Shown here: piece by piece, positions 4,439 through 7,229 of the stretch
Numbering within the stretch: the stretch's first letter is position 1
Layout of the letters: the number at the start of each line of letters is the position of its first letter
Source: Planctomycetota bacterium
GTDB taxonomy: Bacteria > Planctomycetota > Phycisphaerae > WQYP01
Assembly (NCBI GenBank): GCA_021805985.1
Contig: JAJZDN010000036.1
Location: 1 to 39,751 of the forward strand
Direction: 5' to 3'
DNA length: 39,751 nucleotides
Made by a program: the position numbers and the translations under genes
Notes under the pieces: generated by a model
Seen by the model: the letters and a program-made list of their open reading frames with translations, nothing else
What the model was told of the DNA's origin: nothing
The model's database searches: none

Positions 4439-4560
4439 CCCTCGCCGTAGCGATGCAGGGGGCCGACGGCACCTTTAACACAGGCCTGGGAGCGTTTGCG
4501 AGTCATCGCCGGGTCGCGACGGCGTGATTTTTGGCCTCTTGGGGCATCGTCGCGTCTCAT

Positions 4561-4816
4561 AGAGCACCGTGGTGATAACCCGGTGGTTGGTTCGTGGCAC
4601 TGGATCAACCACCGGATTAACATCCGGTGCTCGGCGGGCGGGTCGTGGTTAAAGAGCACCGTGGTGATAAACCCATAGTGGGTTGGCGGCACTGGATCAA
4701 CCACCGGATTACCATCCGGTGCTCGGCGTTCGCGTTGTGGTTAAAGAGCACCGTGGTGATAACCCGGTGGTTGGTTGGTGGCACTGGATCAACCACCGGA
4801 TTATCATCCGGTGCTC
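4561..4816 (+). repeat. three tandem 92-bp hairpin units
   Basis: Three units start at 4561, 4653 and 4745, exactly 92 bases apart. Each has a core of about 72 bases that begins AGAGCACCGTGGTGATAA and ends CATCCGGTGCTC, plus a spacer of 20 bases ending GTGGTTAA. Within each core the left arm (GAGCACCG...CCGGTGGTTGG) is nearly the reverse complement of the right arm (CAACCACCGG...CGGTGCTC), so each unit can fold into a stem of about 28-30 pairs with a loop of roughly 12 bases. In unit 2 the inner left arm is replaced by AACCCATAGTGGGTT, itself a small palindrome. A period of 92 is not divisible by three, so this is not a protein repeat. Confidence 0.85.
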
Positions 4817-4864
4817 TGAAGGCTCCAGCGGGGGTGTGACAGAGCACTGGTGGGTTTACCCACT

Positions 4865-4933
4865 GGCAAGCAAAATAGCAGCGCCAGCGCTTCCCAAGCA
4901 TTCTAACTCCTAACTCCCAACTTCTAACTCCTC
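4865..4933 (-). repeat. dispersed repeat family R1, reverse-strand copy
   Basis: The reverse complement carries the GGAGTTAG-type blocks followed by TGCTTGGGAAGCGCTGG and GCTGCTATTTTGCTTGCC. The last 30 bases (4865-4894) are the exact reverse complement of 7131-7160. The two copies therefore lie in inverted orientation on either side of the moxR and DUF58 genes. A TGTGACAGAGC sequence at 4835-4845 immediately precedes this copy. Confidence 0.75.
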
Positions 4934-5025
4934 GCCCCCCCCTGCATGATCTTTCACCGCAACGCGTTATGCACATTGGCGGGGATGTGGTATTTTTATG
5001 GGGTCTTTTGTTCTGGAGATTTTAC

Positions 5026-6105
5026 GTGAGTGCAGAATCTAATTCGACTGAAAGTTTGGAATTATCGTCGCAGGAGCTTCAGAGCGTGGAGAAGCTGCAG
5101 GACGGTTTTACAAAAATCCGGCGGGAATTGGCCAAAACCGTGGTCGGTCAGGACCAGGTCATTGAAGAACTTCTGATCGCCTTATTTTGCCGGGGGCATT
5201 GCCTGCTGGTCGGTGTGCCGGGGTTGGCCAAAACCCTGCTGGTGTCGACGTTATCAAAAACATTAAATCTAAGTTTTAGCCGCGTGCAGTTCACACCCGA
5301 TCTCATGCCCTCGGATATTACCGGCACGGAAGTTATTGAAGAAGACAAATCCACGGGCCAGCGGTCGTTGCGGTATGTGAAAGGCCCGATCTTTGCCAAT
5401 GCTGTTCTTGCCGATGAAATTAATCGTACGCCGCCCAAAACCCAGGCGGCGCTGCTGGAAGCCATGCAGGAACATCAGGTAACCGCGGGCGGCGTGCAGC
5501 GGCAATTGCCTGAACCGTTCTTTGTCATGGCTACGCAAAATCCCATTGAGCAGGAAGGCACCTATCCTCTGCCGGAAGCACAGTTGGACCGGTTCATGTT
5601 TAATGTGCTGGTAAGTTACCCCACCGAGCAGGAAGAATTTGATATTGTTCGCCTCACCACCGCTCCCCGCCATGTGCAGGTGGAACATGTCCTGACGGCT
5701 CAGGAAGTTCTGCAATTGCAGGAACTCGTGCGGAAAGTGCCCGTGCCGGATCATGTGGTTCGCTACGCCTTGCGTTTAACCAGGCAAACGCGGGTATCCC
5801 AGCCGGATGCTCCGAAATTTGTGAAAGATTATGTCGCATGGGGTGCCGGGCCGCGGGCCTCGCAATATCTGGTTCTGGCGGGCAAGGCGCGGGCGCTGTT
5901 GCAGGGGCGGTACCATGTCAGCACGGAGGATATCCGAGCGGTGGCATATCCCACCCTTCGCCATCGTGTGTTGACCAATTTTAATGCGGAAGCGGAAGGC
6001 ATTCATTCCGATGATATTATCCGCATGCTCATTGAACATACCGATCAGAATGATCAAAGCGCGAAAGTGACCGCAGGTATGCCCAAGGTGTTGCACACCG
6101 CGTAA
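5026..6105 (+). CDS. moxR: MoxR-family AAA+ ATPase
   Basis: MoxR proteins are AAA+ ATPases that act as chaperones for partners carrying von Willebrand (VWA) domains. Counting from the GTG at 5026, chosen for a GGAG seven bases upstream, the product has 359 residues. Walker A is GVPGLAKT (63-70), Walker B ends LADE (128-131), sensor 1 is ATQNP (169-173), and LDRF follows at 187-190; the helical lid domain fills the C-terminal third. The length is a little above the usual 320-350 because of a polar N-terminal extension. A DUF58 gene follows 58 bases later and three large membrane genes come next, the classical MoxR/VWA gene order. ATPase function is secure by family; the substrate is unknown. 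Confidence 0.95.
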   Translation: MSAESNSTESLELSSQELQSVEKLQDGFTKIRRELAKTVVGQDQVIEELLIALFCRGHCLLVGVPGLAKTLLVSTLSKTLNLSFSRVQFTPDLMPSDITGTEVIEEDKSTGQRSLRYVKGPIFANAVLADEINRTPPKTQAALLEAMQEHQVTAGGVQRQLPEPFFVMATQNPIEQEGTYPLPEAQLDRFMFNVLVSYPTEQEEFDIVRLTTAPRHVQVEHVLTAQEVLQLQELVRKVPVPDHVVRYALRLTRQTRVSQPDAPKFVKDYVAWGAGPRASQYLVLAGKARALLQGRYHVSTEDIRAVAYPTLRHRVLTNFNAEAEGIHSDDIIRMLIEHTDQNDQSAKVTAGMPKVLHTA

Positions 6106-6163
6106 AATGGCGGAACGTGTAAAATTGTTTTAAGTGGAAATCTAAGGGTTTAAAGCGTGTGCA

Positions 6164-7100: not shown

Positions 7101-7229
7101 GGAGTTAGAAGTTAGAAGTTAGAAGGTTTTGGAAGCGCTGGCGCTGCTATTTTGCTTGCCCTTAGCAGTGCCGCGGCCAGCGGGCTGGCCGGCTTACCTG
7201 TAACCCGTAACCTGTAACCTGTAACCTCG
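7101..7229 (+). repeat. R1 repeat copy d with GTAACCT array
   Basis: Located between the DUF58 and BatA-like genes. 7101-7160 carries GGAGTTAGAAGTTAGAAG, then TTGGAAGCGCTGG and the GCTGCTATTTTGCTTGCC end shared with 4865-4894. A perfect hairpin GGCCAG-CGGG-CTGGCC lies at 7175-7190. 7195-7229 is a short array of GTAACCT/GTAACCC heptamers, which on the other strand read as the GAGGTTACAGG block of copies a and b. The two halves of the repeat are thus in opposite relative orientation here. Confidence 0.75.

Follow-up and report, generated by a model that had tools for sequence, protein, structure and literature searches.

What is the array of long hairpins that lies upstream of a moxR-type gene in this Planctomycetota bacterium? 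The window, that is, the whole stretch of DNA that was analysed (39,751 nucleotides of contig JAJZDN010000036.1), contains one array detected by TRF, with a period of 92 nt (4561-4816, 2.8 copies, 0% indels, score 421). The units start at 4561, 4653 and 4745, and their spacing of exactly 92 and 92 nt bears out the tandem arrangement with an exact period described in the initial annotation. Each unit comprises a 72-nt fold-back core and a 20-nt spacer (Table 1). Over the full 92 nt, units 2 and 3 are 87% and 83% identical to unit 1, respectively. The cores are all far more stable than dinucleotide shuffles, with RNA fold energies of -46.2, -30.5 and -48.7 kcal/mol (z scores of -7.8, -3.2 and -7.5) and DNA folding z scores of -6.2, -4.7 and -6.9 for cores 1, 2 and 3, unit 2 being the weakest. 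A stem of 28 to 30 pairs had been attributed to every core; the exceptional stability holds for all three, but unit 2 folds differently. As had also been seen, its left inner arm is rewritten and forms a small palindrome of its own, the perfect AACCCA-TAG-TGGGTT, which among the fetched loci is confined to the window lineage. A terminator search returned a single terminator-like site, at 4507-4524, which is within shuffle expectation and lies outside the units, in the MITE arm described below.

Table 1. Features of the array and its surroundings, in window coordinates.
Position	Strand	Feature	Evidence
4486..4489	.	CTGG, the 4 bp just outside the MITE, a CTAG-like target context	Same outer 4-mers at most of 130 TIR sites
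4490..4556	+	MITE left arm, including a degraded 17-nt TIR (4490-4506, 4 mismatches)	An intact 367-nt MITE has a left arm 85% identical over 67 nt (E 4e-19)
4561..4632	+	Unit 1 core; its REP-like halves, 4562-4589 and 4606-4632, lie in inverted orientation	TRF, unit alignment, folding
4633..4652	+	Unit 1 spacer, 20 nt	Direct repeat in register
4653..4724	+	Unit 2 core; the inner arm on the left is rewritten	Unit alignment, folding
4670..4684	+	AACCCATAGTGGGTT, new local palindrome within unit 2, probably derived in the window lineage	Lacking at the other fetched loci; orthologous unit 2 canonical
4725..4744	+	Unit 2 spacer, 20 nt	Unit alignment
4745..4816	+	Unit 3 core, best-folding of the copies	Unit alignment, folding
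4832..4850	-	CTGG and the 15-nt end of a second CTAG-flanked family, partly coinciding with the claimed fourth unit	A 266-nt element in L220 has this terminus on each side; it recurs at further sites
4853..4955	+	Another, distinct dispersed repeat, tailed with the heptamer CTAACTC; adjoins the array	The orthologous L248 is 90% identical over 104 nt; shorter matches at many loci
5027..6105	+	moxR-type AAA gene that opens a MoxR-DUF58-BatA operon; lies outside the element, downstream of the array	Pfam AAA_3 2e-62; conserved in relatives without the array

At the orthologous locus of a related genome (L248 in G007), the array and its right flank likewise precede the moxR gene, with 88% identity over 3.8 kb. 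At this locus unrelated DNA stands in place of the left part of unit 1, and a change in unit 3 affects both sides, GAGCAACG with CGTTGCTC. Since the inner arm of unit 2 is normal there, its rewriting most likely took place in the window lineage, and templated (quasi-palindrome) correction is a plausible route. In genomes G002 and G004 the DNA upstream of the moxR gene is unrelated and contains no array; the operon thus does not require the array.

A partial fourth unit had been placed at 4841-4866. This candidate was rejected: the stretch is the junction of two other dispersed repeats, and AGAGCACTGG, the basis of the claim, has no match at L248. The first of these repeats, GGGTGTGACAGAGCA followed by CTGG, matches the terminus of a second CTAG-flanked family, and the second is the heptamer-tailed repeat of Table 1. 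The second CTAG-flanked family is palindromic, with ends TGCTCTGTCACACCC, and is found in the window at 4832-4850 and 1798-1812 and in L220 at 5846-6111, where the complete 266-nt copy adjoins a MITE. Heptamer CTAACTC, which marks the other dispersed family, gives 11 matches in the window against 0.07 expected, with runs at 4853-4955, 254-274, 373-393, 2845-2858 and 7102-7122; ACCTGTA heptamers are localized at 7196-7227. In L105, L108 and L269 the heptamer element splits a hairpin unit near its centre, as if the loops of palindromes were targets.

The hairpin unit itself belongs to a dispersed family. A search for it elsewhere in the genome, proposed earlier as a check, revealed 69 matches in 4.68 Mb (197 contigs), spread over many contigs, intergenic, and either single or clustered; here and below, repeat counts are taken from searches and from fetched stretches of genome. 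With ORFs as a stand-in for gene calls, 4 of 67 cores fall inside ORFs of at least 200 aa, compared with 73% of random positions from the same loci. Convergent gaps are in mild excess around the cores (14/45 versus 53/261). In a first survey of 61 genomes, 13 gave matches, including the genome of the window; every genome of the same genus except one is among them, along with several more of the family, and no core match was found outside the family. A scan of named genomes located the core in uncultured Planctomycetota, one record being labelled Phycisphaerales. Each core consists of two inverted copies of a REP-like palindrome of about 27 nt: the left half reads GAGCACCGTGGTGATAACCCGGTGGTTG and the right half, once reverse-complemented, GAGCACCGGATGATAATCCGGTGGTTG; the two are near-identical versions of one motif, and each is itself palindromic. 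The family thus has two palindromes in inverted orientation within one unit, and is short, extragenic and present in many copies per genome, as are REPs, REPINs and BIMEs. Since the same repeat is scattered between genes genome-wide, we regard it as a mobile or selfish family rather than a dedicated RNA gene.

Alignment of single copies revealed conserved flanks around the hairpin and, beyond them, terminal inverted repeats (TIRs). The end pattern GAGCCTGTCC.AGTAAT..CCGGG occurs at 106 sites in the genome, against 0 for a reversed-pattern control. Paired ends delimit elements of 47, about 275 and about 360-368 nt, together with one 512-nt copy. The step from about 275 to about 367 nt equals one 92-nt unit, and the two forms align with each other apart from the hairpin segment. 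The outer 4-mers CTAG, CCAG and CTGG surround most of the 130 distinct TIR sites; exact equality of the 4 bp at both flanks, as a target-site duplication would give, occurs in 4 of 29 cases, which is at the chance level of 4.1 expected from the CTAG consensus alone, CTAG being its own reverse complement. Two 1,724-bp ISs have the same 17-nt ends as the MITEs and CTAG on both sides, so that TIRs are common to the MITEs and the autonomous IS, as in IS1182-family MITEs. The IS copy of G006, a close relative, encodes an intact transposase of 477 aa that scores 347 bits against NF033551 (IS1182), for a cut-off of 270; that of the window genome, the sole copy found there, is frameshifted. Elements of 47 bp, made of the two MITE ends alone in CTAG-like sites, were observed at L107, L123, L128, L129, L166 and other loci, and are minimal palindromes with IS1182-type ends. 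MITE outer flanks other than CTAG are mostly one transition away from it (CCAG, CTGG, TTAG), as if the decay of CTAG were biased.

Because the array is continuous with a MITE left arm that begins at 4490, the feature starts earlier than 4561, where it had been taken to begin. The right arm of the window copy was not found, no TIR within 3 mismatches being present in the window; the left arm (4490-4556) is thus the one end present, where an IS1182-family MITE has both. Elsewhere in the same genome, L078 carries a 3-unit array between both MITE arms. The 512-nt MITE, from G007, contains 4 tandem units between two TIRs, and its orthologue in the window genome (L009) 1 unit in 239 nt, so the number of units changes within the inserted element; complete MITE copies hold 0, 1 or 4 units. 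One MITE copy of the window genome, L076, is filled where the orthologous site of G007 (L222) is empty, which points to insertion for this sister copy and not for the window copy. Judged from these sequence comparisons, the array is quite probably a tandem expansion of a REPIN-like repeat carried in a MITE with the ends of an IS1182-family IS, and the window would best be read as holding a one-ended remnant of such a MITE with three units. In the mechanism that we propose, an IS1182 transposase would have moved the MITE in trans, with the REPIN-like repeat as a passenger. Slippage or unequal recombination between units would then have altered their number, and the right half of the window copy would have been lost later. 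The unit would be a selfish or neutral passenger at the DNA level, any effect on flanking transcripts being secondary.

Hairpin and MITE are separable. Genome G004 has 52 hairpin matches, in long arrays with a period of 89-90 nt, and no TIR. G014 has 15 hairpin matches, likewise without a TIR, and its core sits in a different long repeat. In G019, from another genus of the same family, 3.1 Mb of sequence gives 252 TIR matches but not one hairpin unit. In the window genome, several cores are without detectable MITE arms. Because the hairpin is found without the TIR in G004 and G014, and the TIR without the hairpin in G019, the hairpin spreads in some other way too, or is older than its association with the MITE or outlives it. 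Many of the G019 TIR matches are near contig ends, which suggests recent amplification. In G004, the arrays at L091 and L092 have at least 7 copies in a row and no MITE ends. We tentatively propose that a RAYT-independent REPIN-like family may spread by loading into MITEs of DDE transposons and multiply there in tandem, so that transposases of the cut-and-paste type propagate palindromes. As part of this same possible but speculative reading, the MITE host would be IS1182 in the genus of the window and the different long repeat in another genus.

RAYT transposases are the usual explanation of REP-type palindromes. The family might be a classical REPIN or BIME family that owes its spread to a REP-associated Y1 transposase (RAYT), with an incidental MITE association. 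Its inverted REP doublets, extragenic and in tandem clusters that include flanks, are reminiscent of REPINs (PMC3116915), the REP halves alternate about 45 nt apart in the G004 arrays, and Y1_Tnp genes are present in every genome tested. However, in six draft genomes, profile searches up to E 10 that readily recovered controls detected no core in the roughly 1.5 kb on either side of 37 Y1_Tnp loci. The three window units also lack a GTAG or CGTC tag conserved in position at the palindrome end; many single-unit MITE copies do have CTAC/GTAG, but directly against just one end. A RAYT-driven origin is thus unlikely. The association with a REP-type transposase that the initial annotation had suggested seeking was not observed, and its BIME-like cluster holds in part: the repeats are dispersed, intergenic, alternating inverted palindromes, sometimes in tandem, but they show no link to Y1 genes, and the IS1182 MITE had been missed. 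Because the RAYT and tag tests gave these results, we do not class the repeat as a RAYT-type REPIN, even though it works like a REPIN cluster. With its complete copies lying in MITEs that have IS1182 ends, and no RAYT detected in their vicinity, the family offers a concrete and testable alternative route of spread.

The very stable folds and intergenic position could also be those of an array of small structured RNAs, or of an RNA element regulating the downstream moxR operon. Pairing was assessed with 40 distinct cores from several species and two genera, hand-chosen for diversity. The two local hairpins are paired in 93.4% of cells, more often than in shuffles (91.1%; 0 of 500 as high), whereas the 28-pair long hairpin, with 87.6%, is at the level of shuffles (87.2%; 85 of 500 as high). 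The covariation score of the local hairpins is 0.121 versus 0.085 in shuffles (0/500 as high), in counts where independent events are few and which relatedness can inflate. RNAalifold independently chose the outer stem and the two local hairpins. The covariation check thus supports pairing within each half of about 20 nt and in the outer stem, and not across the whole hairpin of 28-30 bp as conceived earlier. The change in orthologous unit 3 is one compensatory double change, but templated correction also yields compensatory changes in palindromes. No Rfam family was reached at gathering score, the sub-threshold matches being to generic hairpins only. The same operon is without an upstream array in G002 and G004, and dozens of copies of the repeat are in unrelated places. 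An RNA function, one of the options raised initially, is therefore very unlikely. Conspicuous hairpins arrayed in front of a gene may thus be what is left of a transposon and not a regulator. Finally, gyrase or nucleoid-protein sites have been reported in BIMEs, and a putative chromosomal protein-binding array of this kind would suit tandem palindromes at an intergenic locus conserved across two species, but it is highly improbable given that copies and species differ in unit number, with values from 0 to many.

The preferred reading, a REPIN-like repeat expanded within an IS1182-type MITE, was compared with known systems. Hairpin and clover folds have been proposed for REPINs, which also form tandem clusters that include flanking sequence (PMC3116915). 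Like REPINs and BIMEs (PMC3116915, PMC2817692), the window family is an inverted doublet of short extragenic palindromes with dozens of copies per genome, both long-hairpin and two-hairpin ('clover') folds are possible, and tandem clusters include the flanks. Unlike them, it has no linked RAYT among the loci searched and no conserved GTAG/CGTC tag, and many of its copies are carried inside a DDE-type MITE. Small palindromic dispersed repeats tagged with GTAG/CGTC are reported in Planctomycetes too (PMC3733652); the window family is also small, palindromic and dispersed, but its tag is not conserved. Searches of open-licence papers yielded no account of an IS1182 MITE that carries such a REP-like tandem cargo. 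IS1272, a member of the IS1182 family, targets inverted repeats and reportedly takes the place of stem-loops, with no duplication of the target (PMC5678879). The two systems share a transposase family and palindromes matter to both, whereas the IS and MITEs of the window family are in CTAG-like sites. Like IS-family MITEs (IS1182, NF033551), the elements described here are non-coding, TIR-bounded, share their TIRs with an autonomous IS of the genus, and have a consistent target context and one empty orthologous site. They differ from these in their cargo, a REP-like unit in variable tandem number, and in the one-ended state of the window copy.
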